Of a stretch of DNA of 64,000 bases, positions 1 to 20,569 are shown in pieces. The stretch lies in the NCBI GenBank assembly GCA_950295325.1, contig OX485803.1, positions 45,771,554-45,835,553 on the forward strand, read 5' to 3'. A model generated the notes under the pieces. It was not told the DNA's origin. It searched no databases and saw nothing but the letters and a program-made list of their open reading frames with translations. The position numbers were made by a program, and so were the translations under genes. The first letter of the stretch is position 1. Each line of letters opens with the position of its first letter. The DNA is from Polytrichum commune (lineage: Eukaryota > Streptophyta > Polytrichopsida > Polytrichales > Polytrichaceae).

Positions 1-1
1 A

Positions 2-742: not shown

Positions 743-841
743 ATGTTCGGCACATAAGTTTTTTCACTCAAAAATGCATATATTACATGTATAGGTGAAC
801 AACTCATTAACGCCCTCAATGACAAATGAAGACTTAGAAAA

Positions 842-1249: not shown

Positions 1250-2611
1250 ATACCGTGTTACAATCAATGCCCAAATAATTGCCCTACACATGTCATACCA
1301 AACACCCTAAAAAATGCATACAAAATACAAACCACAACATACACACAAGAACAAGAAGACACAACGCACACCCCCCACCACGTCCACCACCGGAATACCC
1401 AAAACCACCCCCGCACATCTAAAAAATCCACATACAATTCCCCATACACTCTATAATAAAAGACCGCCCCCACACTTACAAAGATAAAAACAAAATTATG
1501 AAAAAATATACATCCTACTTATGTCAATGGCTACTCCCAAATGAAACAATATATAACAAGTGGCTCCCCCAAAAAGACTTGTTCCCATGAAACAACCAAA
1601 ACACCATAAACCATAACATCCTACTCCTAACGCAATATTATACTCACAAACAAAACCAACACTTCACCAACATCTTACAATTAAACTTCGATGAAGAACA
1701 ATTGAGAGTCACTAGATACATCCCCCCGCCACAAGTCATATCCCTATGTCATATCCATATTAACGAATGTAACCCAGATAATGACATCGCCCACACAAAA
1801 CACCATTAAAAGCCAACATGGTGTATCACACATCTACGACAACGATGGTCGCTACTTAATTACCATCCCTGAGCAAAGACTACAATGATTATGGGAAGAA
1901 TACCAAGATGCATTAAACAAACCACATAATCTAGAACTCCCCATACAATCATTTGAAAAGGAAGTTGCATGGTTGTACAAACGATATAAATATAGAATGC
2001 CCAAAAGTGACCCCCTCAAACTCTCACAATACACACTCCCAAATGCCATCCTTGAACACATTATTGATTCCTTCCACATCACCCATTCCTACTTTTCGTC
2101 ACCAGTAACATGCCCCACCACGCTGAGACAATTCTCCTCCCCATTCTCCCGAGACAAAGTATTTGGGTCAATAGGAACAACATTCCAACATAAATGAATA
2201 GGGAACGGGTATGCCCATTCATATACATGAAGGTCCTTTCCCAGACTCACACGTCATCACACACTTCAAGGCGGACATCATTATACACGATGAACCCACA
2301 ATACCACCAGAACTACGAATAGAACCCCGAATAGAAAGCCGTGACATTCGGGTACTATGCATACACCACAAAACCACAACCCTTGGACCGAGAGGATACC
2401 CACGTCGCATGGACATTATTGGTAACACCCTGCAAATACCCACTATATTTAACACAATTGCACCACCCACACCAATAAACACACCAGTAAACTGTAGCAA
2501 GAACTGGTCTCAACTTACATACCCCCCCCCCCACCTACGACCCTAACTACCAATATCCCACTAATTACCAACCAAGACATATGCCTACCCCTCAAATACC
2601 AACCGCAATTA

Positions 2612-3154
2612 TGTTATTACACAGATGGGTCATTTATACCACCCAAAGAAATAACCCAAGGGCATTGGAAACGAGAAAAAGCAGGATATGGTATATATAA
2701 CTCCTTTAAAAACCTCAAAATCGCCGAAAGACTACCAGGACTTCAAAATATACTACAAGCGGAACTGATGGCTATACACCACACCCTCCGCCTCCTCACC
2801 ACCACATACCGGAATGAACCAGCACACATCTTCACAGTTTGTCTCAATGTTTTATACCTCCTAAACACACAAACAAAACTCCCAACCATGCACAACAGCC
2901 ACCCATATAAGAAAATACTTGAATCTATAACTAAGATGCTACAATCCCGCACACAAACCACCACACTCCATAAAGTCAAAGCACACACGAACATAAGTGG
3001 CAACGAACAAGCAGATAAACTAGCCAAAATGGGATGTGCATTAGAACATAGAGATGCCGTAGCAACATATGAACATGCACACCCCATGCCATACTACCTC
3101 CAAAAAGGCTGGTGGCACTCAATGCAAGAAACACTAGACAAGGGCCCCATCTGA
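2612..3154 (+). pseudogene. LINE RNase H domain, third catalytic residue lost
   Basis: One frame from 2612 reads CYYTDGSFIPP (first Asp at 2624-2626), then QAELMAIHH (Glu at 2762-2764), then FTVCLNVLYLL where the family has an Asp after FT, then KVKAHTNISGNEQADKLA with the final Asp. The RNase H order D-E-D-D is therefore recognisable, but the third residue is Val (GTT), which would remove metal binding. A TGA closes the frame at 3152, where Trp is the likely ancestral residue, and the same frame runs on to the transposon insertion at 3276. Confidence 0.8.
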
Positions 3155-3272
3155 CACCTTGGTAAATACATCCTTAAATATGACAAAAAGCATAACCTAG
3201 CAATTATAGCAACCCAAACACACCAACTACATAAATGACTCGACAACAAAGATATCAACAAAGCATTATCAA

Positions 3273-3276
3273 ATGA
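3273..3276. other. Left 4-bp target-site duplication (ATGA) of the 16.4-kb transposon
   Basis: ATGA lies immediately before the left terminal inverted repeat and is repeated directly after the right one (19712-19715). Removing the element and one ATGA rejoins the LINE sequence as ...TTATCAAATGACTTTTGG..., which keeps the LINE reading frame open across the junction. Confidence 0.85.
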
Positions 3277-3304
3277 AACACTATATTCGTTAAATTGAGA
3301 CTTT
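3277..3304 (+). repeat. Left terminal inverted repeat (28 bp)
   Basis: Starts AACACTATATTCGTTAAATT and is the exact reverse complement of 19684-19711 over 28 bases. A diverged copy of this end and the following 110 bp is found at 12919-13045. Confidence 0.9.
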
Positions 3305-3438
3305 TTGGGCATTTTGAGACATTCACAGAAATAAGAACAAGGATAAATGGAACACATATTGGAGAAAGTTGTAAGATGCGAACACTTTGAAGCGGGTGTT
3401 TAGAACAAGAACCCCGTTAATAACTCAATATTTGGGAT

Positions 3439-3651
3439 TGTTTAGGGTGGGCAATCCAAACCTTAGGCCAAGTTGAAGGGGAAATCTTAAAACATTCATA
3501 TTATCGCACAAAAACTTGTATGAATATGGTTTAGGTAGGGCAATCCAAACCATAGATCATATTGAAGGGGAAATATGTGAACCAATATAATATAACATAC
3601 AAAATATTCCAAACTCATATTTGTGATGGTTTAGGTAGGGCAATCCAAACC
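3439..3651 (+). repeat. Left subterminal repeats with imperfect palindrome cores
   Basis: Three copies of a 24-bp imperfect palindrome (GGTTTAGGTAGGGC then AATCCAAACC) at 3439-3462, 3528-3551 and 3628-3651. Copies two and three are exactly 100 bp apart. Each is followed by a shared segment ending in GAAGGGGAAAT. Subterminal repeats of this kind commonly bind the transposase. The core looks like a decayed relative of the 22-bp palindrome found elsewhere in the element (outer halves GTTT...AAAC). Confidence 0.75.
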
Positions 3652-3817
3652 TTAGACCATATGGAAGGGGAAATCATGTGACACTTATATTATTGCAAAA
3701 AAAAAACATACAAAGTGTGGCATGTAAAATGCATAGCATGCTAACACAACAAATCCATTGGATAGTGCGACCCAAAATGTTCTTGCCTATGGCCCAAAAC
3801 CCTACGCCTACTATGGC

Positions 3818-4120
3818 CTATCTAGCCTCGGAGACTACCTCTTTTTCTTTTGCTTTTTTTTCTTTTGCCTCTTTTTCTTTTGCTGCGGCTTCTTTTGCTC
3901 GCATTGCTTCAACATTCCTGAAAATCTCCACCCCGCGACTATAGCCATTCTTGGGGTGACCGCCATCAATAACACATTTTGGATTCCGTCGGCCGCCCGA
4001 ATTATACGACGAAGAATTCGAATACGATGAAGGGGACTGTCTTGCATTTCTGGTCATGGAGTAGAAACGCTCCAACTCGACGGACGCACTAGCCCGCATA
4101 GGTCTACGGGTGGGAGCAAC
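3818..4120 (-). CDS. Last exon of a minus-strand unit: Lys/Ala/Glu-rich C-terminal tail
   Basis: Phase-0 exon joined to 4256-4609 by an intron at 4121-4255, with donor AAG|GTGAAC and acceptor GCGTTGCAG|GTTGCTCCC. It encodes about 100 residues: a Ser/Asn/Arg-rich part (PSSYSNSSSYNSGGRR), then an alpha-helical tail (EAMRAKEAAAKEKEAKEKKA...) ending VVSEAR and TAG. The tail would be strongly charged and probably helical or coiled. No catalytic domain is visible. The position downstream of the FCP1-like exon on the same strand suggests it is the C-terminus of the large cargo protein, but the connecting junction is unproven. Confidence 0.6.
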   Translation of the reverse strand, partial: VAPTRRPMRASASVELERFYSMTRNARQSPSSYSNSSSYNSGGRRNPKCVIDGGHPKNGYSRGVEIFRNVEAMRAKEAAAKEKEAKEKKAKEKEVVSEAR

Positions 4121-4255
4121 CTGCAACGCGTGAATGCAAGAACACACGTGTTAGTTTAGGGAGGAAGACCCAAACGTGTCACACGTTCATTTTTTAAGTG
4201 CCGGATGATTGTAATGCGCGGTTAACCATGTTTTGGGGGGGGGGGGGGGGTTCAC

Positions 4256-4609
4256 CTTGTCACCGGGGGCGTTCCCGTCGGAGTCGGCGAGGAGGGGCAA
4301 TGCGTCCCGCAAAGGAATAGGAAGGGTGCCACTCTTCGTAGGCCGAGCGTCCATCCGCAGCCGCCGTTGAGGTGTACTACTGCCGCCGGGCCGAGAGGGG
4401 GACGTCCGGACGCATTTGCGATTTATGCCCTTGAGCGGCGACGGGGACGGAGAATGCCGGAAGATTTGCTTGGGTGGGGGGCTATCGACGACGCCGGCGT
4501 CAAGAGGCTCCTTGGAGTAGTCGATGGTGGACGCGGCATCGTAGACGGTCTCGTAGAAGAAGCTCCCCAAGTTTGATTCGCTGACGATCTCAATCGAGGG
4601 CTCCAAACG
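4256..4609 (-). CDS. Internal exon: Pro/Ser/Arg-rich low-complexity segment upstream of the C-terminal tail
   Basis: Open frame beginning after a possible acceptor (CATTAG at 4610-4615) and ending in a good donor at 4255. It reads ESNLGSFFYETVYDAAST near its start, then an SPPPK/SPSPSP/SRPGGSS low-complexity stretch. The in-frame TAG at 4610-4612 excludes upstream extension, so it needs splicing to an earlier exon. A phase-2 join from the FCP1-like exon (for example MYRE-F to ESNLG, acceptor GATCGTCAG) is possible but the donor (GTACGC) is weak. A poly-G run in the following intron (4236-4250) may also be an assembly risk. Confidence 0.5.
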
Positions 4610-4728
4610 CTAATGGCAAAATTAAAACAAACAAAACCCAAGGGGAGGGGGGCAGGGGGGGAGCATGAGAAAATCGATATACAATTGAGGCATACTATAT
4701 CACACACAATGGCACACCATGTAGTATC

Positions 4729-5541
4729 TCAAATGAGTTTATTATATTTCGCGTGAGCGTACAACTCTCTGTACATGTAGTCCTTCGGATCCATGTATCT
4801 TTCGCCTATCGGATTACAACTAAGGAACCGGGGCACGGGTAGTCCGCTCCCCACGAGCGTTTGAATGTACTTAAGTAGGTCTAACAAAAAGCGGTCTCGG
4901 ACCTTCTCGACCGTCCACGTGGGGCAAACGATGAAGTTGGAGGTCGGGTTCAAAATGTTTTTGGAAGCGTTGTCGTCCACCATCAACGTGTTGTCACGGG
5001 TGGGGCGAACGTCGTAGGGACAGCCGACCATGGTCGGACGCTGGTCCCATACGACTGGCTTCAAGACCTTAAGAAATTGGTTTACGGCGGGGTTGTTGGG
5101 CTTCTTCACAACCCTGCCCTCGGGGGTGTACAATGTTTTACAAGAATCCTGTCCTAGGACCAAGCACGGGGGTTGGAGTCCCTTGAAGATGAACTCCACG
5201 ACGGCCTGGGTATTCTCGGACTTCATGGAGCTCCAAATGATCACCCACCATTTGGATAGGGCGACCTGTAGGAAGCGCCGAAGCCACGGGCGGAGGTACA
5301 CTAGCTTGCTTTTGATGTACGCGGGGGGTCCATCGTAGTTGGCGTCCTCGGGCTTGCAGAAAGGCACCGTTGGGACCCTCGGACAATGCACGCACTGGAC
5401 AAGGACCCCGTTGAGGTCTAGCACCAGGAACCGGGTCTTGGGAGGCGAAGGTGGCGAGGGCAAAATCGGGGGGACCACCGCGCTGTCCTCCACATTCCTC
5501 GGAGAGGATCGGTGGGGAGCCGCGACGCTATGCTCCGAACC
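4729..5541 (-). CDS. FCP1/SCP-type HAD phosphatase-like exon with DxN in place of DxD
   Basis: The frame opens at a phase-0 acceptor (TCGCCGCAG|GGTTCGGAG at 5541) and ends KYNKLI-TGA at 4729. From about residue 37 it shows the FCP1-homology layout: FLVLDLNGVLV (HAD motif I), the WWVIIWSSMKS segment (motif II Ser), Lys-rich linker, and TLMVDDNASKN (motif III with paired Asp), then FIVCPTW. Members of this family dephosphorylate phosphoserine proteins such as the RNA polymerase II C-terminal domain. The nucleophile Asp is kept, but the general acid/base Asp two residues later is Asn, so activity is doubtful; plant homologues with DxN are known to me only from memory. The upstream exon ends in phase 0 at 6033, so the two can be joined across an intron at 5542-6032. 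It could instead be an independent gene starting at the GTG or a hidden first exon. Confidence 0.72.
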   Translation of the reverse strand, partial: GSEHSVAAPHRSSPRNVEDSAVVPPILPSPPSPPKTRFLVLDLNGVLVQCVHCPRVPTVPFCKPEDANYDGPPAYIKSKLVYLRPWLRRFLQVALSKWWVIIWSSMKSENTQAVVEFIFKGLQPPCLVLGQDSCKTLYTPEGRVVKKPNNPAVNQFLKVLKPVVWDQRPTMVGCPYDVRPTRDNTLMVDDNASKNILNPTSNFIVCPTWTVEKVRDRFLLDLLKYIQTLVGSGLPVPRFLSCNPIGERYMDPKDYMYRELYAHAKYNKLI

Positions 5542-5989
5542 CTGCGGCGACGAGCGAGAGAAGGCGGCGAGGACTATGTTATGCTATGTCCATCTCAAGC
5601 AGAACGGAAATTTTGTGCAAACACAAGAAGAATTGGACCATTGGTGGCAACAAAAACATACAAGGGAACAACATACATTGGGACACGGATGCAAACATAT
5701 GGGCGCCAAAAATAATAATTTTATTTTTACAAATCTCTATGTACAATTTGATTCGGGGGGGGGGGGGGGCGCGGTGAACGAGGGCATTCACACTATCCTA
5801 ATTCTACATCTACAAAATTGGTTGCGCGTCGCCAAGGTCGAGCGTAGTTGAATGCAGGTGAGACGAAGGGGATCGCGGGGGGGCACGTTGGGGGGAGGGG
5901 GAGCAAGTGTAGACCAGGGGGGGCAGGGGGTGTGCATTTCCTCCTAGCAAGGGGGACACGACCACGCCAACAAGACAGTGACCCAGGAA

Positions 5990-6011
5990 GTTTGGGTCGG
6001 TCGACCCAAAC
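5990..6011. repeat. 22-bp element-specific palindrome in an intron
   Basis: Perfect palindrome except its centre: half-site GTTTGGGTCG followed by its inverse CGACCCAAAC around a central GT. It lies in the intron between the coiled-coil exon and the FCP1-like exon, close to the donor at 6032. Confidence 0.9.
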
Positions 6012-6032
6012 TGGGAGGGCTCAATGTATTAC

Positions 6033-7510
6033 CTCGCCCTGGTCATGTCTCGACGATATGGAAGCCTCCACCGTCCCCGCTGCCCCGCCTCTCTCGCCAC
6101 CACCTTCTCCGACGACGTCAGGAACCTTCTCCTGCAAACGATCGGCATCAGGCCCTTGTCCTAAACCAATCTCCGCATGTGCATCATGCATGGGTTCATC
6201 GATTTGGTTAGGAGTAGAGGTATCACCAGGCCCTTGCAGGCCTTCAACATCTAGCATGGCCGTGTCTAGTTGACACCCATGTTGGTCAAGGGAGGACTGC
6301 GCTGCAACGGGGTTTGGGTCGCCCGACCCAAACTGTCCTGCATCTGGAGAGGGCCCTTTGGACACTACAGTGGATGGTGGGTTTGGGTCGGTCGACCCAA
6401 ACATCCTGGGGTCGTCCGATTGGTGGGGTGGCGCCATGACTATGGGGGGCCGAAGTGGTGGAGGGCCCAAAGGGGAGGAGGCTCCAGAGACGCGCCAGAT
6501 GTTGGGGTCATCCACTTGCTGGACCGGCGCGTACGGAACTTGGTGGGGCCGCATCAAGTGCTGGAAGCTGAAAGACGATTGCGGCACAGGCTGCTGAGGG
6601 ATGCTCTGCGGAGGGAAGCCGGGGGGCAAGTGCGGGAAGGAGCTGGAGGGAGCCACCACCAAACCTTGCGCCCACATTCCTTGTATCACTTGTGATATCA
6701 AGTCGGCGTGGGACGGAGGTTGGGCCATCGCCCTTTGACGCTCCTGCTCCAACAGGAGAGCCCTCAGCTCTGCGACCTCGTTCCGCATTGAGGGTTCTTC
6801 CGCGGCAGCCTTCTGCAGGCGGACTTGCTGCTCCTCGTCTTCTCGTTCGCCTCCTCCACAGTCAGGACCTCGGGCTTCACCCTAACCATGCCAGCGAACG
6901 CTGTCGGGGACGGGGGATCTGATCTTAGCCGTTTGGCGAGCTCAATGTCATCGTCGTCCTCGCTACTTATGGCAATGGTCTCCTCCACGGAGTAGTCGCC
7001 ATACAGCTTCTTCCCCTTTAACTTCCTCCTCTCCCTGAATGTCGCGGTGGCGTCCCTGGAGTACATGTCCCGTGCATCGTCCACAGTCAGGACGGGCACG
7101 AGCTTACTCTGCGGGGTTGCCGCCCGCATCGCCTTCTTCCGTTGAGGGGCTTCGGATTGTTGCGTGAAGCCCGTTGCCCCTTCCTCGACGTCGCCTTCCT
7201 TCTCCGCCTCCTCGTGTTCCTCTTCTTCCTCCTCCTCCTCCTCAACCTCGCCACCTTCTGTGCGGGACGGATTGCCCGGATGCAACCCGACTAGAGGTTC
7301 GGGAACTTGGGTCGTGGCCCTCATGGCCATTTCCTCCGGGTTGATGCGCCTCACCCTATCAAGAGGGTTTTCGCCACCCTGAACAACCTCGTCGACGTAG
7401 CTACCCGGGATCCAATCGAGGATGTCCATCTTCTTCGCCAGCGATTTCTGCACCCTGTAAAATGGCAGATCGCCATCCTCTATGTAGGAGTATATATTCA
7501 GCCCCGACAT
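6033..7510 (-). CDS. Cargo gene exon(s): end of methylase-like fold, Glu-rich region, coiled coil, Pro-rich tail; one frame change
   Basis: Starts at acceptor TTGTGTAG|ATGTCGGGG (7510) in phase 0, directly continuing the methylase motif I of the previous exon (AAM-MSGLNIYSYIEDG). It then has an acidic run of Glu (about 7210-7250), nuclear-signal-like KRLRS, and a heptad-like segment EEQQVRLQKAAA...AELRALLLEQERQR (about 6830-6740), then Pro/Gln-rich sequence ending HDQGE at donor GAG|GTAATA (6033). The frame changes near 6830-6900. Either one base is missing (the paralogous-looking LTVEEANE runs into the coiled coil), or a 74-nt intron (ATG|GTTAGG to CTGCAG|AAG, both phase 0) is spliced out. 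Two 22-bp palindromes lie inside the coding sequence and are read as FGSTDPN and FGSGDPN. Confidence 0.65.
6312..6402. repeat. Two 22-bp palindromes inside a coding exon
   Basis: Copies at 6312-6333 (centre GCCC variant) and 6381-6402. Both are in frame on the minus strand and add FGS-x-DPN heptapeptides to a Pro-rich region. Their length (22) plus flanking bases leaves the frame open, so they look like tolerated insertions. Confidence 0.85.
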
Positions 7511-7584
7511 CTACACAATCCAAGTTATAGGGAAATTAGAATTTGTCGAGGCAATCACATAAACAAGACTAAGTACAATGTGTA

Positions 7585-7642
7585 GTTTGGGTCGGTCGAC
7601 CCAAACCTGCAAAGAGCCTAGTTTGGGTCGATCGACCCAAAC
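7585..7642. repeat. Two 22-bp palindromes in the second intron of the cargo gene
   Basis: Copies at 7585-7606 (centre GGTC) and 7621-7642 (centre GATC, a perfect palindrome). They fill much of the 160-nt intron 7511-7670. Confidence 0.9.
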
Positions 7643-7670
7643 TGCTTACGAGCTATAGAAAGTCACTTAC

Positions 7671-9002
7671 CATAGCAGCATAGACAGGTTTTGAGCCTCC
7701 GAAGACGTTGAAGATGCAGTCCCCTCTCCTCGTCAGCGTCCTCATCATTCTCATGTAAAATTCCATCCGCAGCTCATCTGCAGGATAGTTCGCGTATTTA
7801 GCCTCGTCGTAGAGGCATTTGTTCGCACCCAACCCTTCTGGAACTTGGAAGAGTTTGTCCATCCGGGATATAGGGTGGTTCGGCACCTTCAGCAACTCCG
7901 CTTTGTACACGAAGTACAAACACAAGACGTTGACGAACTTGGTCTTCTTGTCCTTCAACGTCGTGTAAGCCCCCTCCGCCGGTGCGGCGATGTAGTGAGA
8001 CTTGGACACTGCATACTCCGGCTGCAGTTTCCGGACAAGCTCGTACACCTGCTCCGCCCTTCTATCCTCGACTATCCAAAGCCAGATATCTACCTCCCTG
8101 AACTTAGGGCTTGCATAATCGACGAACTTAGTTAAGAAGGGGTCGTAGAAGAGGGTGCTCATCGTGCCCTCAAATGAGCTTCCAAGAATATTTCTAAAAT
8201 CAATCATCCCAAAAGGAAAGCGGTCCCTTGCTTTCGTCCTTATCGCCATTCTGGCGTCTTGACCTGGCCAGCCCTGAATTTTCAAAGGCTCGAAGGTGAC
8301 AAGGTTGAAGTAAGCGTCCCCTTCAAACTGGACAATCTTCTTCTCCTTGATGAAGTTCGAGAACGCACGCGCTGTGTGATCCGGAAGCGCCCGGTTCTTC
8401 CCACCCTTCACCATCTTGGCCCGCAAGAAGTCGTCCCCCGCTTCCCTTATTAGAGCCGCCATGGAGGCACTGGTGAACTTATATTCATCTTTGAATGCTC
8501 TCCAGTTAGCCCCATGAACCTCGCCGTCCACGACAATATTCCTCTCTGGCACCAATTTATGCAGCTCCTGCACGATAGTCGTCTTCTTTTTCCTGTTCTC
8601 CATCCATTCCTTCATGGTGTAGCATGAAGGAACGAAGGATTTGGGCTTTACGAAGACAATCTTCGGGTGCACCCAGCACCTCTTGGCCGTGGGTGCCACG
8701 TGCAGGATGTGCGATGCCGCCTTCTCCACCTCCGTCTCTGACAGCCCTTGAAGAGTTCTAAAGAACTCTCTCACGAGAGGCTTCATCTGCTTGAAGCGCG
8801 AGGCCAGGCTGAAGAAAGCGCCAGTGTCAGGGTCGATCAAATCCCCCGTCTCGTGCTTTTCAAACACGGTTTTCCACTTCCTCCAAACTGAGTCCGATGC
8901 TGTAATCAAGTAAATCTCCCCCTTCAGGTCGCTGTATTTCTTCTGCTTGTGGCTCGAATTATCAATGGAGGAGAATTTGTTGATCATTTGGTATTTGAAA
9001 TC
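7671..9002 (-). CDS. Cargo gene exon 2: beta-class N4/N6 DNA methyltransferase-like domain, catalytic motifs degenerate
   Basis: A 444-codon phase-0 exon between acceptor GTTCACGTGCAG|GATTTC (9002) and donor GCTATG|GTAAGT (7670). The final residues GDCIFNVFGGSKPVYAAM, continued after splicing by MSGLNIYSYIED, match the SAM-binding motif I of beta-class methyltransferases (D-x-F-x-G-S-G...A...G...E). Upstream, YDPFLTKFVDY followed by EDRRAEQVYELVRKLQPE resembles the motif IV (DPPY/F) to helix order of the same fold, and motif IV preceding motif I is the beta-class order. Key positions differ: Asn for the first Asp, GGSK for GSG, YDPF for DPPY. The protein may bind but not methylate. The N-terminal half (SDLKGEIYLITASDS...) has no fold I recognise. 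The neighbouring ParB-like exon strengthens the call, because ParB-like plus methylase pairs are familiar in phages. Confidence 0.65.
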
Positions 9003-9092
9003 CTGCACGTGAACAAAACAGAACATTTGAATGCGTGTTAGTTAAGTACATGTGATTTCCAAACCATATCATGACCAACATCTACAACAAGA

Positions 9093-9406
9093 GTTTGGGT
9101 CGGTCGACCCACACTGAAAAAAAACACAAGACTGCAACAGTTGTTTGGGTCGATCGACCCAAACTAAAAAAACACAAGACTGCAACAGTTGTTTGGGTCG
9201 ATCGACCCAAACTAAAAAAACACAAGACTGCAACAGTTGTTTGGGTCGATCGACCCAAACTAAAAAAACACAAGACTGCAACAGTTGTTTGGGTCGATCG
9301 ACCCAAACTAAAAAAACACAAGACTGCAACAGTTGTTTGGGTCGATCGACCCAAACTTTAAAAAAACACAAGACTGCACCAGGAGTTTGGGTCGGTCGAC
9401 CCAAAC
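9093..9406. repeat. 48-bp tandem array built on the 22-bp palindrome, inside intron 1 of the cargo gene
   Basis: Seven palindromes start at 9093, 9143, 9191, 9239, 9287, 9335 and 9385. The inner units have a 48-bp period: the palindrome with centre CGATCG plus a constant 26-bp spacer (TAAAAAAACACAAGACTGCA then ACAGTT). The array fills the intron 9003-9415. Reading it in any frame gives long open frames such as WVDRPK or LGRSTQT repeats, which are not genes. Confidence 0.95.
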
Positions 9407-9415
9407 AATACTCAC

Positions 9416-10741
9416 CTCCCACTTGGGATTCTTGTCCTTCGCATTCTCCCTCTCCTTGGGAGGCCTACCATAGAACTCCCACACCTCCCGCGAGGCCATG
9501 ATATTCCTTATCCAAGAAGCTTGATAGGCCCTCTTCTTGTTTCCCATATTGAAGTACCGGGAGATGTCGCTGAGCTTAGTCTCGTCGTCAGACCACACCA
9601 CCAGTGCCTTCCAAACCTTCAGCTTTTCCTTCTGATTGTTGGGATCGTCCCACTCATTCATGAGTTGGATTTTCTTGGATGCCTCCACGGTGTGTTGGCC
9701 GTCTATCAGCCAAAAATCGCCCTTCTGAATTGTTGGCCACATTTCAGGTGTAGGCATTTTCTTGAGACCCTGTGGCATCACTACAATCGTTTGCCTGTCG
9801 TCTTTAAACTGCTCGCAAACGATCTGCGCGATTATCCAGTCAACGTAGGCGTCCTCCTTTGCCCGGACACACTTCTCCGGTGGCGCTAGATGGCACTGGC
9901 TGATGTTCACGTCGAACTTGAAATCCCTGCCCATGAAAAAACAGTGGGAGCATTTCGTCGTGAAATTGTTCACGATTTTCTGCAACTCCCCTGCATCCAC
10001 CTCTTCGCCGGGCTTCGGCATGCGCAACTCCGGTGAGACTGGCTCGTCAGTCATCACAGATGACTCTCTCGCCCTCTTGGATGGAGTTGTTTGACGGCTC
10101 CCAGAAGGTGTAGGGGTCTCACTATTCGTAGGTGTTTGGGAGGGAGTGGTCCTACGCGAGTCAGCCAGTACTGGTAGCGGCATCCTCACCGATTGAGGTC
10201 TTGACGACCCTGCTCCTTCCTCTGTGGGAGCTTTCCGCCTCACAGGTTGCTGTGATTTGGTTTTGCTTTGCAGGCCCCTGTTCAGCACGGTTATTGCATG
10301 TTTTAGTTTTGTGAACCGGCTTGAGACCTTGGTATTCGATGTACTCCCATCGATAAATATTGTCTCCGGCTTGATAACTTCCGGTTCGACACAGGACTCT
10401 CTTGCATAGAGTGCGTCGAAAGGCTCGGAGAACTGGTGCATGAACATATGCGCGTTCTGCACAGCCGAGTTCTCGAGGATGACGTCGGTATAGTCTCCAA
10501 GAGACTGTACCGATGCGACCTCCCATCCTGTAAGAGTCGCCCAGGTGTGTTTCTCCACGGTTCCCACCTTGACAACAAAAATCATTTTGTATGTTGAGGC
10601 TTTGACTACTTGAATAGACCAAGCGAGGACAAGCCCGTCCTTAGAGGAATAGGAGTCATCCTGCGGGGTTTCGTGCTCCTGCCACAACATGTCCGGCGCA
10701 GGCATGAACCACCTTTCGCCGGGTCTTTTCTTTGGAGCCAT
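9416..10741 (-). CDS. Cargo gene exon 1: ParB/sulfiredoxin-like domain protein
   Basis: Starts ATGGCTCCAAAG at 10741, right after an acceptor-like TTTTTTTACAG, so a 5' UTR intron is likely. It ends KNPKWE at a perfect donor (GAG|GTGAGT, 9415). The 442 codons comprise an N-terminal region of unknown fold (PAPDMLWQEHETPQ...), a Ser/Thr/Pro/Arg-rich linker with KRARE, and a C-terminal block from about residue 265. That block has the ParB-like order: ISQCHLAPPEKC, a helix, TIVVMPQGLKK, then GDFWLIDGQHTVEASKK (about residues 343-358) and KALVVW. DGxH-x-x-x-A is the signature of the ParB/Srx fold (DGhHR in bacteria); here Thr replaces the usual Arg. In phages and plasmids this fold appears next to DNA methylases. 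The spliced product continues in phase 0 into the methylase-like exon. Confidence 0.7.
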
Positions 10742-10767
10742 CTGTAAAAAAATAATGCGCAAAGTTA

Positions 10768-11235
10768 GTTTCGGTCGTTCGACCCAAACATCTACGACAT
10801 GAATAGGTTTAGGTGGATTGTGTATTTATATATTTCAGCATCATTTGTAATGATAATAAGAATGTTGTGATTATTGGGTGGATTTGCATTTTATATTGTT
10901 TGTGACATGCAGGATTCCTTGATACTTTTCCTTGATGCATTCCTTGATTATTATTTTGGGTTGATGTGAATTTTATATTGATGCAAAAATCATGGATTTC
11001 TTTATGAGTTTATAATTAGAAGACTTAGTTTGGGTCGTTCGACCCAAACATGATGCTTTGTGTTATATTTTGGTCGTTCGGCCCAAACATGATGCTTTGT
11101 TTTGTGTTTGGGTCGAGCGACCCAAACAAGGGGCTGTGTTTGGGACTGTGTTTGGGTCGGTCGACCCAAACAAGAGGCTGTGTTTGGGTCGGTCGACCCA
11201 TACAAGAGGTTGTGTTTGGGTCGTCTCCCCAAACA
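10768..11235. repeat. Cluster of seven palindromes upstream of the cargo gene start
   Basis: Copies at about 10768, 11028, 11067, 11106, 11150, 11182 and 11214, each 22 bp, with centres GTTC, GAGC, GGTC and degenerate forms. They sit 27-494 bp upstream of the ATG at 10741, in what is probably its 5' UTR intron or promoter. Confidence 0.9.
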
Positions 11236-12918
11236 GTATTATTTTAATATATTTTTTAAACTTGGCATCTAGCATATACAATGCTTATGCATTGTGTATG
11301 CTACAAAACCGTGAATATACAAACACATATTGGTTAAAATAAAACACAATACCTTTCAAAGATGTTGTGCAGACAATTTGGAGTAGAGCAGGTTGTTCTT
11401 CCAATAATTCTCAATATCAAACAAACTGTGAGAAAGTTCAATGAGAAACTTTCAAACAAGTATCAACTCTCTCAAATAGCTCTTGGATCTCTCAACCAAC
11501 TCCTGAATCTCACACAGAACTACTGAATCTCTCAAAAGACTTCGAAATGTCTAAACCAACTCCTGAATCTCACACACAACTACTAAACCTCTCAAAAGCC
11601 TTCGAAATGTCCAAACCAACTCCTGAATCTCACACACAACTACTAAACCTCTCAAAAGACTTCGAAATGTCTAAACCCACTCCTGAATCCCTCACAAAAC
11701 TACTGAATCTCTCAAACGACTTCGAAAACTCTCAAACAACTCTTGATACTCTTAAAGAACTCTTGAATTTCACAAGCACTCCTAAAACTTCCAGTACAAA
11801 CACCTGGACCTCCCAAACCGAAGCTTTATCTACTACCGAATGTTCTACTAACTTCCTTCAGCACTTTCCAATACTCTTCAACACTCTTTTGCTAACTTCC
11901 TTCACTCTCACGCTCTAAAACCTTCCTCCGTATGTTTCTGTTTCTTTCAAAACTCTTCCTAACTTCTAAGATTGCACAAGGGCTATTCTATTGAAGAGCA
12001 AAAGAAAGGAGGGAAAAGAAGATGCAGAAGAAAGCAATGAACGCGGGAGAATGAAGGGTTAACCTACACCAAGCCTGATTCGCCGCGGCGCTTTGCGAAA
12101 GCGGCGCTTCAGGAGAGGCGGCGCTTCCAAGCGAGGCGCGGAGAGAGAGAGAGAGAGAAAGAAATGAGAAATGCGACGGTTGGGGTTTTGTTTACCTCGG
12201 GCATTGGCCCCCAACCGCATGAATAGGGTGCCCACAGGATTAGGGCACCCACGGAAACAGGGTTATAGGGAACCCTAAAACCTAAATCATAACGCTTGAC
12301 TCTAAACCCTTAGCGGGCCTACCTCTTTAAGAGTACATAGGCTATTTGCCTCATAGCATAGGTTGCATTCTACAATATCAACTTTTTGTAAGTTGAAAAC
12401 CTTTTGAGTTTGTAAGTTCCTCGCCAATTGCCTCAAAACTAAATTTTAGTAGGTTAAAATCCTTCATATCTTTTAATGTTGTAGGTTTTTAAATCAAAAT
12501 TTGAGTACTAAGTGGGATCCTTCAAGTTGGCAGGAATTGAACCTGGCTAAGCTTTTCACCACGTTTGAAGGCCAAGGATTAACCAAGTCTTTTTTAAAGA
12601 GTTGATTATAAGTTTTGAAAGGTTGCTAAAATTCAAATGAGTTTAAGGGTGAAAGTTCTCACCATGTTCTCATTCAACCTCTACTCTTCCTGCAAGATAT
12701 AGCCTAAAGATATGTACTTAGGCCAACTAATTTCCCAATTTGAAGAAGGATGAATGGCTAAAATCCTTTCTTTTAAAAAAAATTTAGGCAAAATTTCCTA
12801 AATGTTTTTATCACATAGGTTGATATCCTATGTTTTTAAATTGTCCATAGGCTCTTTGTCCTACACTTTCAAAATTTTATAGGCTAAGTCACTAATTTTG
12901 TAGGCTGCATTTGTTTTA
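11236..12918. other. Noncoding centre of the transposon, left part
   Basis: No supported gene. Holds a 63-bp minisatellite (11470-11760, listed separately), then a purine-rich stretch (11990-12060) and a GC-rich patch with repeated GCGGCGCTT and a (GA)n run (12080-12170). On the minus strand these read as a CT-rich leader and may be the promoter/5' UTR of the cargo gene. The rest to 12918 is AT-rich with nothing I recognise. Confidence 0.4.
11470..11760 (+). repeat. 63-bp minisatellite
   Basis: About four to five diverged units containing CTTCGAAATGTCTAAACCAA and CTCCTGAATCTCACACACAA. The period is a multiple of three, so one frame stays open (11547-11918) and would give 21-residue repeats (MSKPTPESHTQLLNLSK...). 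With no start context, splice signals or known domain, I read it as a noncoding satellite. Confidence 0.75.
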
Positions 12919-13175
12919 ATCGGTATATTCGTTAATTTGGGATTTTTTCGGCATTTTGAGAAAGTTACAAATATAAGAACATGGATAAAATCGCACGTAC
13001 ATTGGAGAATTTTGTAAGATGCAAATACTTTGAAGCGGGTGTTCATATCAAGAACGCAATTAAGATCTCATATGAAGATGGTTTAGGTAGGATGACCCAA
13101 ACATTACACTATGTTGTTGTGGTCCATATATTAATTTGAGAGAAGAGAAAATCTCAAATTAGCGAATTTTAGGGT
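12919..13175. mobile_element. 257-bp non-autonomous relative of the big transposon, nested inside it
   Basis: Its left 115 bp align with the left end of the large element (TTCGTTAATTTGGGATTTTT... through GAAGCGGGTGTT, compare 3277-3410). Its right 45 bp align with the right end (CCATATATTAATTTGAGAGA... compare 19660-19711). The middle has one palindrome-like core (GGTTTAGGTAGG...GACCCAAAC, about 13079). The two ends are diverged, so this is an old copy. It looks like an internally deleted, MITE-like derivative. Confidence 0.75.
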
Positions 13176-13689
13176 TTAGGTTCTTTTGGACCCTGCTCTA
13201 AACCCTTATTAGTTTTTTCAAAAGAACTATGGAGTACCCTAAGGTGCTACATAAAATGTGTTATTCTACAAAACTAACCATTTATATAGCCAGCGCATTC
13301 TTACAACAAAACTTTATGCTAAACTAATACTTATCCCCTACTTACATGACACCATACCCTAAATTTTCCAAAATCATTGAAGGCATTGGTTTCTCTTTTG
13401 TTTGAGCATGTTAGAAAATTTAAACCATATAATTGCGTTATATTTAACGATGTAACCATTCACATTTAGTCCTTACCAATGATGCCAACAATTCACACGA
13501 TATTGAATGAAAAAAAAGAAGATTACCCACACCCCCCAACATGTGGAACAATTTAGAATAATTGAGTGTGGAGCCTAATAAATGAATACCTTCCCCAACT
13601 GCATTTTGCAAGGGTTTTGAAATGCACGATCCTTATTTGAAAATGCGAACATGCTCAAGTTTTAAGTACATCCCTTAGATCGTGACTTT

Positions 13690-14515
13690 CACGAATCACA
13701 TAGTCGCCAATAAATCATGGTTCATGATTTATTTAATATATAGATTGTGATATAAGAGTAAATGGGATAAGCACAACATCAAATGAAGCCATTCAAGCAA
13801 TCATGTTGTTATTCCCTGTTCCTTCCATGTATATTAGATGATGGCGCAAGATAAAATAGATGTTGTTTGTATATGGGGGCATCAGTGAACCACAACTACA
13901 TTTGGTGTTAGGGTTTAGGGTTTAGGAGATAGGAGATAGGGTTATAACATATTAATCTATCCAATGTCAATGTATAACATTGTCTTACTCGTGAGAAGAG
14001 TCTTATAGGAAGGTTATAGTGAAGACGATGTTGATTATGTTAATTTGTTATTCGAGACGTTTAAACGCGATATATTGATTGGTCGTGTGTTTATTCAAAT
14101 AACATGAAATATTGTGGATGTTAATAGGGGCTAGGGGTCCAACTTTGGATGTTTCGCTCACTTTAGGGAATCACATATTAGTCGCTAATAAACCATCGTT
14201 CATGATGTATTTAATATATGGAATGTCATGTAAAAGTAAATCGAAGAAGCACAACATCATGTTGTTATTCATTGTTCTCTCCACGTGTATTAGATAATGG
14301 AGGAAGATATAACAGATATTGTTTGCATAATATGAAGAAGAGTCTAATCGGAAGGTCATAGTAAATACAATCTTGATCATGTTAATATGTTATATGGGAC
14401 GTTTAAACATGATATCCTAATTGGTTTTGTATTTAGTCAATGCGTATTTCATGTTGTGGATGTTATAAGGGTTTAGGGTCCAATCTTGGATGTTTTGCTC
14501 TCACACATTAGTAAA
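13690..14515. repeat. Diverged tandem duplication of about 0.48 kb
   Basis: Blocks near 13693-14160 and 14168-14510 share AATAAATCATGGTTCATGAT / AATAAACCATCGTTCATGAT, the GTGTATTAGATRATGG segment, and GACGTTTAAAC...GGATGTT. The second unit has internal deletions. Nothing coding is seen. The flanks 13176-13690 and 14515-14667 also hold no gene. Confidence 0.7.
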
Positions 14516-14667
14516 CTTGAAGTGAACTTGAGGATGGATTCAAGTAACATTAAAAGATTGAACTAGAAAGGGACATTGGTAGTTAGTATCCCCTTAACAA
14601 CGTCCACATACATTCGTCATTGCCACTCTTGCATGCGAGATAATAGAGCAAGGCTCTAGGGTTTAGG

Positions 14668-14812
14668 GTTTAGGGGGGACAAATAAATAATTCTATTCAT
14701 CATGACAATGGCCTCAAGCCTTGGAAACTCTCTCATAATTGCAGCCTCCAAATGGCCCAAACCCCACCTAAATAGGTTTACACTTGCAAGCATTGAATGG
14801 AGTTGTGTTTGG
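14668..14812. mobile_element. Internal fragment of the Tourist-like MITE seen at 60668-61195
   Basis: Shares TTCATCATGACAATGGCCTC, AAGCCTTGGAAA and CATAATTGCAGCCTCCAAAT with 60812-61070, but lacks that element's terminal repeats and part of its middle. Confidence 0.7.
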
Positions 14813-15065
14813 GTCTACATATTGGTTAAAATATACCTTGATGACACTTGAAAAAATTAATGTGGCCGCCACCCTTCCTCCCAATGGCGTATGTCATATC
14901 CACACAAAACAAAACAAATAGATTAAATAACATAGACTAAGTCATATGACGGCTGGGGTATCAGAGGGGCATTGATAGATGCGCATTTTTCTACTATAAA
15001 CAGAAAACGGGGAATTCTGTCGGGAGGTTTGAAATAACCTCTGCAAGAGAAGAAGGCGGGGAAGG

Positions 15066-15135
15066 CATCCAATGACTAAGTCTGGGAAGCGGAGGTGGAT
15101 AGTATAAAGGGGCGCACCCCCCAAAAGTCGGTCAT
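15066..15135 (+). promoter_or_regulatory. Likely core promoter of the transposase gene
   Basis: TATAAAGG at 15103-15110 is preceded by a CCAAT-like ATCCAATGAC at 15068. A pyrimidine-rich TTTTTTTCTCTTCTCCC follows at 15133-15150, a typical start region about 30 bp downstream. This would give a 5' leader of about 970 nt to the ATG at 16111, probably containing an intron. Confidence 0.5.
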
Positions 15136-15413
15136 TTTTTTCTCTTCTCCCGCTGTCGAATTCGTAGAGAGAACTCTTAGTAGGAGCTGTACTTCAAGGT
15201 TCGTGCATGCTGCCGTTCATGAGCACTTATCCATAGCATGCAAGTTCATGAGCACCTATCCACACCATGCAAGCCCACCGTGAACTTTGCAATGAGCTCA
15301 AATTCAACACACCACGCAATATCCGCCGCATTATACGCCGGATTTTGTGGTGTACTTGGGCGAACCTTCACCTTTACACTAGTGTTGGCGGGTTTTGAGT
15401 CTGACCCTATGAG

Positions 15414-15934
15414 GTTTGGGTCGACCGACCCAAACCTGTCCACTAGTGTGTTAGGGTTTATGTCTGACCCTTAATATGTTTGGGTCGGTCGACCCAAACC
15501 CCAACCCCAGTGTGTTAGGGTTTTTGTCTGACCCTTATCAGGTTTGGGTCGACCGACCCAAACCTGTCCACTAGTGTGTTAGGGTTTATGTCTGACCCTT
15601 GTGAGATTTGGGTCGGTCGACCCAAACCCCTACCCCAGTGTCTTAGGGTTTTTTTCTTGACCCTTATCAGGTTTGGGTCGACCGACCCAAACCACTACAT
15701 GGTGTGGGTGGATGTACTCTTATGAGGTTTGGGTCGGTCGACCCAAACCCCTACCCCAGTGTGTTAGGGTTTTTTTTTCTGACCCTTGTCAGGTTTGGGT
15801 CGACCGACCCAAACCCCTACCTGGTGTGGGTGGATGCACCCTTGTGAGGTTTGGGTCGGTCGACCCAAACCCCTACCCCAGTGTGTTAGGGGTTCAGTCC
15901 GACCCTTATGAGGTTTGGGCCGGTCGACCCAAAC
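15414..15934. repeat. Array of nine palindromes upstream of the transposase gene
   Basis: Copies start at 15414, 15478, 15542, 15606, 15671, 15727, 15793, 15849 and 15913, spaced 56-66 bp. Centres alternate between GACC and GGTC, so the units alternate in orientation. The spacers share TGTGTTAGGGTTT and TCTGACCCTT. The array lies between the promoter and the start codon. Confidence 0.95.
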
Positions 15935-16110
15935 CCGCACCAAAATAATTTCTGGAACTTGTTTTGGACTTGCACACAGTGTTGGGAGTTCACATTGTAG
16001 TTGTGTTGGAAATGTCTTCATCCTCGGTGTCCCCATTGATCATGGTGTCTTGCATTTTCCGATATTTGATTCTTTTGGACCCTTACATTCTTTCCATGTG
16101 TGTAGGCGCA

Positions 16111-19100
16111 ATGGAGGGAGTTGGTGGAAGAGGGGATTCCTTCTCTGACGACATGGGCAACACCCAATCTACGTCTGGGGATGAGCTAGACATTGTTGGG
16201 GAGGATAGTTTTGATGACAGTGCAGATGAAGGTGACTTGGGGAGTCCTTCGCCATCTGCCCCTTCTTGCCCCACTGTGGAATGTGCTGGGCTTTCACGAG
16301 CTTCATGGGTGAATTTGGATGTAGTACTTGTTAATGACAGTGGAGTTGCTGTGGCGGAGGGTATTTGTCGTAACACACATCCACAAGATTGCATTGATGA
16401 AAACCCCCTTGGCACCGAGGACGTTGGAGTTGTTATATTGGAATCACTCGTACATTCTGAAGTGAATCCAACTCATAGGTTCTCGTTGCGAAGGTGGCCG
16501 TTGAGGAATGTGACAATTGATGGGGTTAATTTGCATGAGCATGAGCGACGACACATCCAAATCCAAGAAGAGCTCCAAGCAAACATTTGGCCACGCAAAG
16601 GCCTACGGAAGTACGATACATTGGCACGTCCTACTCCGTCTGCAAATGAGTGTAAACGTCAAAGGTTGCTTTGTGAGGAGTCCATTAGAGAAGTTGCCAC
16701 AAAGGATTGTTGTGTACATCGTTGTTGCCAATTGTTCCCAAGGGATAAATTGAAGGCCATCCGCGAGGAAATGTGGCTTGGAGATTTCCGTCTAAGATCC
16801 ACCAAAAAGCTTGATGTCCATAGGGCGATACATGTGAACGGAGCGGGTCGCAAGGTCATCACCCTTGAGAGCATAGACGTGTGTTGTACCGCATGGTACA
16901 TCATTCACGGTGTGTCGAAAGCGGAATTTTATAGACAAGCCGCGTATGCCAAGGAAGGCCGCCGGTCCCGTCACCATGGGAATACGGGCTTAAAGAAACC
17001 AAGGGAAGCAACGAGACAAGCAATCGCCACTTTGGCAACCATCATTGTCCCCCTTGCCGATGCAATGCCGCACAAAACACGCACACTCGCAACCGGTGAA
17101 AAGGTTGTGGAGAAGGTTCTTCCTACAGGCACGAAATGGAAAAACATATTGTTGGACGTAAACGCAGTTGGCGAGAAGGCTGGGTTGGACCCTATTTCGT
17201 TGTCGAAACTGAGTGCAATAAAAAAATCTCACTTTAGCGAATACATCACAAAAAGACGAGGCGACAAATTTGCCCGTTGTTCCAAATGCGAGAAGTTGAA
17301 ACGCCTTCGAGATGCACACACGATGGGGACAGAGTCCTATGCCGCACATCAAATGAACTATTTCAAGCATGTGAACATGCAAGAGGCACACCGTAATGAT
17401 TACTACACAAATAGAGCTTTGTCCATCTCTAGGCCTTTGGAGGTCCTTACAATCATCCATGACAAAATGGACCATGCCAAAACAGCCTCACCATGTTTTG
17501 CAAATCGAATCAAAGCCACAGACGGCCTTTTTAAGCTTCATGTATCGGTTACAGGTGATTTCGATAACAATTGCATTGCATTACCTAAACACAAATTTGT
17601 GCTTTAGGTTTGTACTTGGGGCCATAGATGTACACCATGTGAATTTTTTGGTGTTATAGTTGAATATTAAACCATTGGGTTGGCTTTACAGGGATGATTG
17701 CACATGGACATGGTGATGTCAAGTATGCTCATTATGCTCTTGATTTGTATCCGGCGGATTCAAACCACACGATAGGGTCATTTGCAAAGCTTTTACGTGA
17801 TTTGGAGAAACCGCCGTCCTATTTATCAAGATTGTTATTTGAAAACTCGGGATCAACACCTCTATATGAAGCGGTCTTGGATGGAAGAGATGTATGCGTG
17901 CACTCCTTGCCGGAGCCACCAAGTGAAGATGTGATTGCCAAGAATTTGCCCCCAACTCTGCGTGTCCAATTGGACAATTGTGCGAAGGACAATAAAAGTA
18001 TATATGTTTTTGCATATTGGTCGTTGTTGGTTGCGAAAGGCATTTTCAAGGAGGTTTTTGTGTCCTTTCTATTGGTAGGCCACACGCACGACGATATCGA
18101 TGCATCTTTTGGGCGGTGGAGCATGAAGTTGCGCGAGGAGGATTTTCCGACAATCCCATTGTTGATGAAGTCGTACATGGATTTGGAGAACATTCCCGTC
18201 ATCCCCCATATGATCGAGGAGGTTCCAGACTTCAAGGCATTTATAGAACCGTATATTCGAAGCGGAGCTCACCGATTGATCGGACATACGAAGGCACAAC
18301 AATTTCGGTTTTACGTGCGTGACGATGGTGTCCCCGCCATGCAATACAAGTTGTTGTGCACGTCACAAGACTGGAGCCCGCCGGAGGGTCTCCTTGTATG
18401 GCGTGTTGATGGAGAGGGAAGGACGATGTTGCCTGACGGAGAGCCTAAGCCTTGCAAACCAATACTAATGAAGAATTTGGAGGACATTTGTAAAGGCATA
18501 TCAGGCTTCATACAATATTGGGAGAGTTTGAGGGTAGCGGATGTTGGTGGATCGTGTTGGCTTCGTTACGGAAGTTGGATACAATATTGGACACGTGTTC
18601 GTGGTGCTTTGGCAAACCTTCATCAAGATACACCCCTTACTTTAAGGCATGGGTTTTGGCCACAAACACGTGTCAATGTACAAGCTTCGGAGGCTAGTCT
18701 TTTGGGAAATGGAGAGGTTCGAGAGGAGTTTGATGTGGACGACCATTACGTGGGGCCTGCTAGTAGTCGTCCGCCACCATCTTTCCGCATTGCAGTGGAT
18801 TGTCATGAAGGTTATATGCTCATTTTGCGTCCTGGAGATGAGACATATGCAAAGCCAGTGTGGGTGGCAAGAGCTTTGTCGAAACCAAATTTTGTAACTT
18901 CCAGCCCTCATTTTCGACAAATACAAGTAGAGTACTACCGACCGATAGCACGGAATGAAGATGTTGTTCGGCATTATACAGGCTGGGATACAAACCAACA
19001 CTTTCGGTGGAAGGTGGATTCTGAGCACGGTCCATCTTGGGTAGATACAGATTCCATATTCATAGCATGGAAACCACGGAAAAATCATAGTGGATCAGTG

Positions 19101-19178
19101 TCCATCCCTCAAAAGTACATAATTTTTGCAAAAGACAACCTTGCTCGGATCGCAGAAGAAGCAACCCACGTTGAATGA
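16111..19178 (+). CDS. DDE/RNase H-fold transposase (DUF7869-like), two exons
   Basis: Exons 16111-17554 and 17692-19178, with intron donor ACAG|GTGATT and acceptor CTTTACAG|GGATGATT; the join is phase 1 and gives 976 residues. The start ATG (MEGVGGRGDSFSDD) follows an acceptor-like TGTGTGTAG at 16097-16105; the frame is open further upstream, but without a better start. An acidic N-terminus is followed by CCVHRCCQLFP and a long basic helical region (GRRSRHHGNTGLKKPREATR), a probable DNA-binding part. Three acidic positions fit a DDE triad: IIHDKMDHAK (about residue 450), VQLDNCAKDNK (about 575) and VGHTHDDIDASFGRW (about 612). The D-N-C...N-K and GHTH-x-x-x-D layout is that of the DUF7869 family. 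It would cut and join the element ends. The ORF is unbroken, so the element may be recently active. Confidence 0.82.
17555..17691 (+). other. Intron of the transposase gene
   Basis: 137 nt, GT-AG, AT-rich. Splicing restores VSVT-GMIAHGHG, joining the two halves of the catalytic domain between the first and second acidic residues. Confidence 0.85.
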
Positions 19179-19199
19179 GAAGTTGGTAGGATTGTGTTA

Positions 19200-19683
19200 G
19201 CATGATTATAGTGTAATATGTAATTCGACGAATATATATTACTCATATGTGTGCTCCTCAAACTTGGGGCAAAGTTTGGGTAGAACTTGCGAATGCTATA
19301 TTGTTTGGGGTTGGATGAATATCCATTTACTATATTTCAATACAGTTGTGAAGTTCATTTTTTTATTAAGTTTGGGACTAAATTTTCCATTGAAGAAAAA
19401 TGCATTTATTGCATGTACTTTGTATGTTGCAATGTCTATATTTTATTGACCATGCTAATAATAGAAATCCTTTTATATGTTTTTTGGGTGAAACTAGTTT
19501 GGAGTGCTCTACCCAAAGTGTTTTTGTTGATGAAGTTGGTGTTGAGTGCTCTACCATATGTGCTTATATGTCCACACCCCATAGATTTGGGATATTAGAA
19601 CATATAATATATTTGAGATTGTTCGCAATATAGTTTCGGAACACGGAATGTTGTTTGATCCATATATTAATTTGAGACTAGAG
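19200..19683. other. Right subterminal region of the transposon
   Basis: AT-rich, no gene. It contains repeated TGGAGTGCTCTACCC / TTGAGTGCTCTACCA (19499-19555) and, next to the right end, a hairpin TTTGAGAC...GTCTCAA (19671-19692). Confidence 0.5.
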
Positions 19684-19711
19684 AAAGTCTCAATTTAACG
19701 AATATAGTGTT
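19684..19711 (-). repeat. Right terminal inverted repeat (28 bp)
   Basis: Exact reverse complement of 3277-3304. It is followed immediately by ATGA (19712-19715), the second copy of the target duplication. Confidence 0.9.
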
Positions 19712-20520
19712 ATGACTTTTGGAATAACCCAGTTATCACAAAAAAACAAAAAAACATGCCTAGTAAAATTTCGAACCGGACAATACATGGGACATGCTCG
19801 AAAACAACTATTCTTTGGTAGAAATGTAGACCCATCCAATGCATGCCCTATTTGCAATTCATTAGAATCAGACACATGGCTCCATGTACTCCTTAAATGC
19901 AAACAACAACACATACATGCACTAATAATGAATAGACATAACAAAGTGGTATGGGAAATACGCAAACTTCTTGTCTCAAACAAAATAACAAAACACTACA
20001 TACTTATGAATGCAGGCACATACAATGAACTACCCCAAGAAAATACAGTACCACCATGGTTATTACCATGCACATGTGGCACCCAAAGATGTCATTGCAA
20101 CGCTAGGTTCAAACATGACATACTATGCATCTTAGGCCACCCATACAATTCCCCACCACCAGAAGCACCTACACCGGAAATCACTATACAATTCATAGAA
20201 GTTACATACTGCAACGATAGGTTTTCCTGCTGAAACAAGAGAGAGAAAATTTACAAAATATCAACCACTCATTAACAATATCATAGCAAGAGGATGGAAT
20301 ACAACTCCACTCATAGTACTAGCATCAAGTGCCAGAGCCACAACTCACATCCCCTCAATGAAAGAACTAGAAACAAAGCTTAAACTCCCTACACCACAAA
20401 TCCGGAACACATTCAAGCAAATCAACGTAATCGCCACACAATATGCACACTCAATATTGATACATAAAAGAAGGATAGAAAATCGACAACCTATCATTGA
20501 CTTACAAAACCATATCTAAA
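19712..20520 (+). mobile_element. 3' part of the split LINE with zinc-knuckle domain
   Basis: The plus-strand frame to 20233 carries CLVKFRTGQYMGHARKQ and then CPICNSLESDTWLHVLLKCKQQHIH, the Cys/His motif found at the C-terminus of LINE RTs (zf-RVT type). The sequence continues the A/C-rich style of 1-3276. Excising the transposon makes the RNase H frame run across the junction (LSND-FWNNP) before one frameshift in an A-rich tract near 19740. The end is near 20520-20570, where CT-rich and poly-C sequence follows. Confidence 0.8.
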
Positions 20521-20569
20521 TGTCACAAGTCCAACACACTCTCTCTCTCCCTCCCCCCCCCCCCCCTTC

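Follow-up and report, generated by a model that had tools for sequence, protein, structure and literature searches.

The element and its palindrome

The window considered here is a stretch of 64,000 nucleotides from the moss Polytrichum commune (contig OX485803.1, positions 45,771,554 to 45,835,553 of the forward strand). It holds a DNA transposon of 16,435 bp (window 3277-19711), and inside this transposon a 22-bp palindrome is repeated many times. The first-pass annotation had given the element as 5990-15934. That span is too small; the terminal repeats and the target duplication flanking them set the real limits (Table 1). The element has three genes. One encodes a DUF7869 protein that we take to be the transposase. 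The second, a gene of three exons on the opposite strand, is here called ParB-like. The third is a phosphatase-like open reading frame (ORF).

The palindrome, hereafter the dyad, reads GTTTGGGTCG-NN-CGACCCAAAC. Its free centre is exactly 2 bp, rather than the two to four bases first proposed, and the "several" CG dinucleotides credited to every copy turn out to be exactly two CpG in each perfect one. The count of at least 28 copies holds: 28 lie at 5990-15934, 21 perfect, five with one mismatch and two decayed (11067, with 3 mismatches, and 11214, where the right arm has decayed). A further copy with 3 mismatches, at 13081, comes on top of these. When one mismatch is allowed, the half-site GTTTGGGTCG alone occurs 61 times in the window, where shuffles predict 2.85.

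The dyads are placed, as had been claimed, upstream of both genes, in introns and in an exon. By the gene models, introns account for nine of the 28, an exon frame for two, and gene leaders or the 3' end for the other 17. The first palindrome of intron 1 nearly abuts the splice donor in the window, with 9 bases between. The 47.6 kb of the window outside the element hold no dyad at up to 5 mismatches (first-order Markov resamples average 0.1), again in agreement with the earlier claim. That reading did overlook six degenerate dyads (up to 5 mismatches) in the subterminal regions, where 0.01 are expected. Perfect copies in the window sit at least 2.7 kb from both ends of the element.

Table 1. 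Coordinates of features of the transposon, in window positions
Feature	Position	Strand	Remarks
Target site duplication	left 3273..3276; right 19712-19715		ATGA, 4 bp
Left terminal inverted repeat	3277..3304	+	28 bp, perfect
Left subterminal degenerate palindromes	3440..4175		at 3440, 3529, 3629, 3756, 4154
SCP/NIF-type phosphatase-like ORF	4732..5583	-	PF03031, E 9.6e-14
Palindrome, 3' end of ParB-like gene	5990..6011
Two palindromes, last exon frame of ParB-like gene	6312..6402		at 6312, 6381
ParB-like gene, exon 3	6767..7510	-	as far as the frame runs in the window copy
ParB-like gene, intron 2	7511-7670	-
Two palindromes, ParB-like intron 2	7585..7642
ParB-like gene, exon 2	7671..9002	-	residues 225-444: predicted N6-adenine-methyltransferase fold
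ParB-like gene, intron 1	9003-9415	-
Seven palindromes, ParB-like intron 1	9093..9406		48-bp tandem unit
ParB-like gene, exon 1	9416..10741	-	residues 272-404: predicted ParB-CTPase fold
Seven palindromes upstream of ParB-like ATG	10768..11235		at 10768, 11028, 11067, 11106, 11150, 11182, 11214
Nested MITE-like fragment of the same family	12919..13177		diverged copy of both element ends; right limit by eye
TATA-like sequence	15103		with the transposase gene leader
Nine palindromes, transposase gene leader	15414..15934
DUF7869 transposase-like gene, exon 1	16111..17554	+
DUF7869 transposase-like gene, exon 2	17692..19178	+	PF25273, E 5e-42
Right subterminal degenerate palindrome	19497..19518
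Right terminal inverted repeat	19684..19711	-	28 bp, perfect

Distribution of the dyad in the genome

The genome searched comprises 408 Mb. It contains 9,231 copies of the exact dyad and none of the reversed sequence. The 100 dyad places among the matches listed span the first 2.16 Mb of contig C1, where they are grouped in seven clusters, and the DNA of all seven was fetched. Three clusters, at 0.61, 1.18 and 2.11 Mb, are copies of the window element, and these hold 77 of the 100 listed places. Eight arbitrary 10-kb stretches (80 kb) contain no dyad at up to 4 mismatches, and one at 5. Thus, the motif is enriched in copies of the element, and is not equally common in unrelated regions.

The remaining four clusters (0.438, 0.463, 0.475-0.478 and 2.154-2.160 Mb; 23 of the 100 listed places) are put to a second transposon family, with the proviso that the 0.463 Mb locus matches it partly and that a pair of places at 0.475 Mb is included for its proximity to the array at 0.478 Mb. 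The copy at 2.15 Mb is 12.3 kb long, with inverted repeats of about 60 bp and a target duplication of 9-10 bp, AGTTGGCAT(G), found when the ends are allowed to shift by up to 15 bases. Its right end falls where two copies cease to be homologous. Mutator-like elements (MULEs) are recognised by a target duplication of 8-11 bp together with terminal inverted repeats, and the second family has both. Its transposase gives a SWIM match below the cut-off (E 0.076), with a core recognised by eye. The gene opposite has, by eye, a ParB-like DGNHR motif, and with it goes an ORF resembling N6_N4_Mtase. The latter match (E 0.021, below the cut-off) comes from the 0.48 Mb copy, which shares 80-97% identity with the 2.15 Mb copy in its ORFs. 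In this family, dyads occupy the intron of the transposase gene and the interval that separates it from the ParB-like gene. Elsewhere, at L034 1974-2938, two ORF pieces are 28% identical to the methyltransferase-like ORFs of this family, and are possibly a third relative of the gene.

The dyad is therefore not private to the window element, because a MULE-like family of the same genome carries it also; what stands of the view that the motif belongs to the transposon is its enrichment there. The sharing invites the thought that both families exploit a site to which some transcription factor or chromatin protein of the host binds. This is unlikely. The 100 listed places are all in or beside the two families, while both the 80 kb of arbitrary DNA and the 47.6 kb around the element lack the dyad within the mismatch limits given above.

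Nor is the dyad at all likely to be where the transposase binds for transposition, as TnpA does at the subterminal sites of Spm/CACTA elements. The six degenerate subterminal copies would suit that role. However, the perfect copies in the window are internal, in introns, exon and leaders, and the second family has the same dyad with another type of transposase.

The dyad also travels with the ParB-like gene. Dyads with CC at the centre number 86 + 73 in the genome, and 95 of 1234 candidate copies of exon 2 of the gene were scored. Within 12 kb of a scored copy lie 46 of 100 listed CC-centred sites, versus a shifted mean of 0.6; conversely, 46 of the 54 scored copies in the listed part have such a site nearby.

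Conservation of the dyad

Pooled, the seven loci give 165 dyads at up to 3 mismatches, of which 121 are perfect. Information is 1.5-2.0 bits per arm position, about 0.3 at the two centre bases and at most 0.44 in the flanks, a profile that arises partly by construction, the sites having been chosen by similarity.

A further measure comes from copy B, a diverged sister of the window element. Between the two, exons 1 and 2 of the ParB-like gene are 77-79% identical in DNA, with differences at 101 of 151 and at 86 of 141 four-fold sites (61-67%). The ratio of nonsynonymous to synonymous change (dN/dS) is 0.05-0.20 in the four measurable pieces. Over this distance the single-copy dyads at 5990, 6312 and 6381 keep 60 of 60 arm bases, in stretches otherwise 64% identical, and those of intron 2 keep 40 of 40, in a stretch otherwise 34% identical. 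Alignments of multi-copy arms (89/140 in intron 1, 82/100 in the ParB leader, 177/180 in the transposase leader) depend on how copies are paired, and are given less weight.

The arrays tell a similar story. Among the nine dyads of the transposase leader, arms average 97.8% identity and spacers 67.6%. Around the same dyad the spacers are unrelated, forming units of 64 bp in the window, 78 bp in copy B and 32 bp in the second family. The array in this leader has nine dyads in the window, 17 in copy B and 21 in sister copy A.

Passive, functionless spread as a tandem repeat would, of course, also give arrays that vary in size, and tandem duplication, in units that include 48, 64 and 78 bp, does contribute. 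To this extent the earlier dismissal of satellite spread was too strong. As a full explanation, however, it deserves very little credence. It does not explain why the single-copy dyads of the exon and the 3' end are unchanged at near-saturated synonymous divergence, why arms are so much better kept than spacers, or why one dyad is set in unrelated spacers in copy B and the second family. Selection on a dyad-symmetric site is thus supported, because single-copy sites are identical while synonymous sites approach saturation, and because the corresponding introns of relatives retain the site while arrays differ in the spacers around it.

Relatives of the ParB-like gene

Those introns can be examined in metagenomic relatives. 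The proteins of these relatives often extend into introns, and the intron DNA can therefore be read from the peptide. For this, 80 tails were cut from 71 homologues. Translated in three frames, the dyad encodes VWVxRPK, LGRxTQT or FGSxDPN; strict matches to these peptides number 35 in the 80 tails, where shuffles average 0.001. A site, strict or variant, stands directly behind the splice donor in the exon-1 tails of 16 of 32 readable homologues, and a site is present in 10 of 22 intron-2 tails. Arm variants do occur. The two arms are concordant in 10 of 10 readable cases at dyad position 8, and in 8 of 11 at position 5.

One group of variants falls mainly in a single protein clade, formed by P0102, P0152 and P0155 together with P0154; its support is 100/100, and the labels were assigned by hand. 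A further variant, P0104, has a non-variant as its sister. As far as the sequences go, this distribution fits co-evolution of site and protein, short of proof. Other arm sequences in relatives fit a binder that changes together with the element, and count further against a host factor.

A palindrome that sits so often in introns, exon or leaders, and behind the splice donor in half of the readable homologues, might instead act in RNA, as a hairpin in splicing control or small-RNA production. We regard this as highly unlikely. A loop of two nucleotides is too short for the full stem. Conservation extends beyond pairing to the sequence itself, 121 of 165 sites being perfect (among sites picked at up to 3 mismatches); the symmetric one-base-change variant GTTTCGG..CCGAAAC has no copy in the genome, and two-sided changes are found only in relatives.

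The candidate binder

The ParB-like protein is predicted to contain the fold of a ParB N-domain, followed by a Rossmann methyltransferase fold of the N6-adenine class. The three-exon gene and its homologues match no Pfam family at threshold. In ParB-CTPase proteins the nucleotide-binding P-motif is of the GxRR type; here, by eye, its position reads DGQH[TS]VEA. N6-adenine methyltransferases have a catalytic motif IV of the DPPY/W type, and by eye the end of the strand expected to carry it holds a conserved DFRxxPG instead. To judge from these residues, the methyltransferase-type domain appears to be catalytically degenerate.

The frame of exon 3 shifts near 6855 relative to a downstream ORF (6021-6881), and homologue P0092 continues past that point; the C-terminal part of the window copy (6767-6881) may be damaged.

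The insertion and its sister copies

The transposon interrupts a retroelement resembling a long interspersed nuclear element (LINE), which occupies window 1-3272 and 19716-20540. Its left flank matches reverse transcriptase (PF00078) and RNase H (PF00075); the right-hand remainder was recognised by eye. Once joined, the flanks read through the junction in frame.

The terminal repeat of the transposon has 1045 + 1043 matches in the genome (up to 3 mismatches, the pattern being its first 25 bases). On C1, the matches listed include 91 exact ends and 35 neighbouring pairs no more than 45 kb apart, 19 of these spaced 16.0-18.5 kb. Sister copy A (C1:2112817-2129768) has identical ends and a different 4-bp target duplication, ATAA. 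In the stretches fetched, all three sister copies match all three element genes, some with lesions or insertions. The phosphatase-like ORF is 75-98% identical in them, with a dN/dS of 0.20 against copy B. The DUF7869 protein is at most 68% identical to metagenomic proteins (44% of the query covered) and 36-50% identical to named moss proteins. The nested fragment, which resembles a miniature inverted-repeat transposable element (MITE), is mismatched at 6 of 28 positions of its left end and contains the degenerate palindrome at 13081.

Interpretation and comparison with known systems

On balance, we believe that the transposon itself encodes a DNA-binding protein which recognises the dyad, most likely the ParB/methyltransferase-like product, and that the dyad serves self-recognition and probably anti-silencing in the manner of VANC. 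That the dyads recruit this protein is suggested because their layout matches that of VANC targets. The minus-strand product, with domains of ParB-CTPase and N6-adenine-methyltransferase type, would bind the dyad as a symmetric dimer. Through the arrays it would be concentrated in introns and gene leaders, much as VANC arrays do for their protein in VANDAL elements. Once bound, it would identify the transposon as self and protect gene activity there from silencing by the host, perhaps with some feedback on the gene that encodes it. The degenerate subterminal copies would belong to the same class of site, with weaker binding. By analogy, then, the dyad and its protein probably have an anti-silencing role. 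The data show the site, its enrichment and conservation, the arrays, the co-occurrence with the gene and the predicted folds; the binding, the binder, its dimerisation and its anti-silencing role are what we infer. Nothing points to the binder better than the fact that two families have both the site and the type of gene in common, yet the same fact is the chief reason to think of a host factor.

Several points weigh against this reading, which is drawn from sequence and predicted folds. The ParB-like protein has no helix-turn-helix above the Pfam cut-off, neither its ParB-type CTP-binding box nor a methyltransferase DPPY motif can be recognised by eye, and for exon 2 Foldseek gives no significant E-value (best 0.12). 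The ParB-like proteins of the two families are linked by motifs and by a profile match that is very weak (probability 0.6%) and spans 23 columns, covering the motif only. Covariation in relatives is thin: both double changes at position 8 come from one protein, P0097, and the change at position 5 is one-sided in 3 of 11 readable peptides. The other 54 of the 100 listed CC-centred sites are near no scored ParB copy, although unscored copies of exon 2 may explain many of them. The CpG observed/expected ratio is 0.80 in the element and 0.76-0.80 over both families, versus 0.40-0.60 in the eight arbitrary 10-kb stretches. This speaks only weakly for reduced methylation, because the ratio is 0.58-0.62 in the noncoding part of the element, and because two further stretches outside it reach 0.73 and 0.83.

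The closest parallel is with the VANDAL elements of Arabidopsis. According to two accounts, these carry motif arrays in introns and upstream regions, as tandem repeats that expand and contract, and encode an additional protein (PMC5735166, PMC10398659). The moss element likewise has a short, element-enriched motif, dense in noncoding parts, in variable tandem repeats, and a second protein besides the transposase. It differs in that the VANC motif is the 9-base YAGTATTAY, in a single orientation, and the dyad is long; in that the candidate binder is predicted to be ParB/methyltransferase-like; and in that the dyad is common to two types of transposon. The domains named for VANC proteins are DUF1985 and DUF287 (PMC5735166). 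Neither gives a Pfam match in the ParB-like exons or their homologues. A further mark of the VANC system is a sequence-specific loss of DNA methylation brought about by the protein.

Phage proteins that fuse ParB-CTPase and N6_N4 methyltransferase domains offer a second comparison, and a role in anti-defence or phage-host interaction has been suggested for them (PMC12704722). The same predicted pair of domains is on mobile elements in both cases. The moss genes, however, belong to a eukaryotic transposon, are interrupted by introns, show degenerate methyltransferase motifs and come with a palindrome array of their own. In ParB-parS systems, too, a protein with the ParB fold acts at a palindromic site; here, a protein of predicted ParB fold could be loaded as a clamp at the dyad, whose sequence and length differ from those of parS, without a CTP box recognisable by eye.

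Other likenesses concern the transposon itself. Spm/CACTA elements have ends that start CACTA and a 3-bp target duplication. The moss element resembles them in its repeated sites for a putative element protein, but its ends begin AACACTA, its duplications (ATGA, ATAA) are 4 bp and its perfect sites are internal. Sola elements make 4-bp target duplications, and the likeness to that superfamily is one of duplication length.

A bolder proposal is rather doubtful: the dyad and a ParB-clamp/pseudo-methyltransferase, related to the phage anti-defence fusions, would form a portable self-recognition module that two or more unrelated transposon superfamilies of one plant genome have adopted. The protein would load at dyads as at parS, spread and exclude silencing, and the families would activate each other.

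Sequence-specific anti-silencing by transposons is known mainly from VANDAL elements. If our favoured reading is true, the moss offers a second system, of different structure, whose defined sites number in the thousands, implying that transposons repeatedly evolve private address codes. A ParB-type clamp would offer a concrete spreading mechanism with which to test how silencing is undone. And one code common to two superfamilies would make cross-activation, or parasitism of one family by another, directly measurable.
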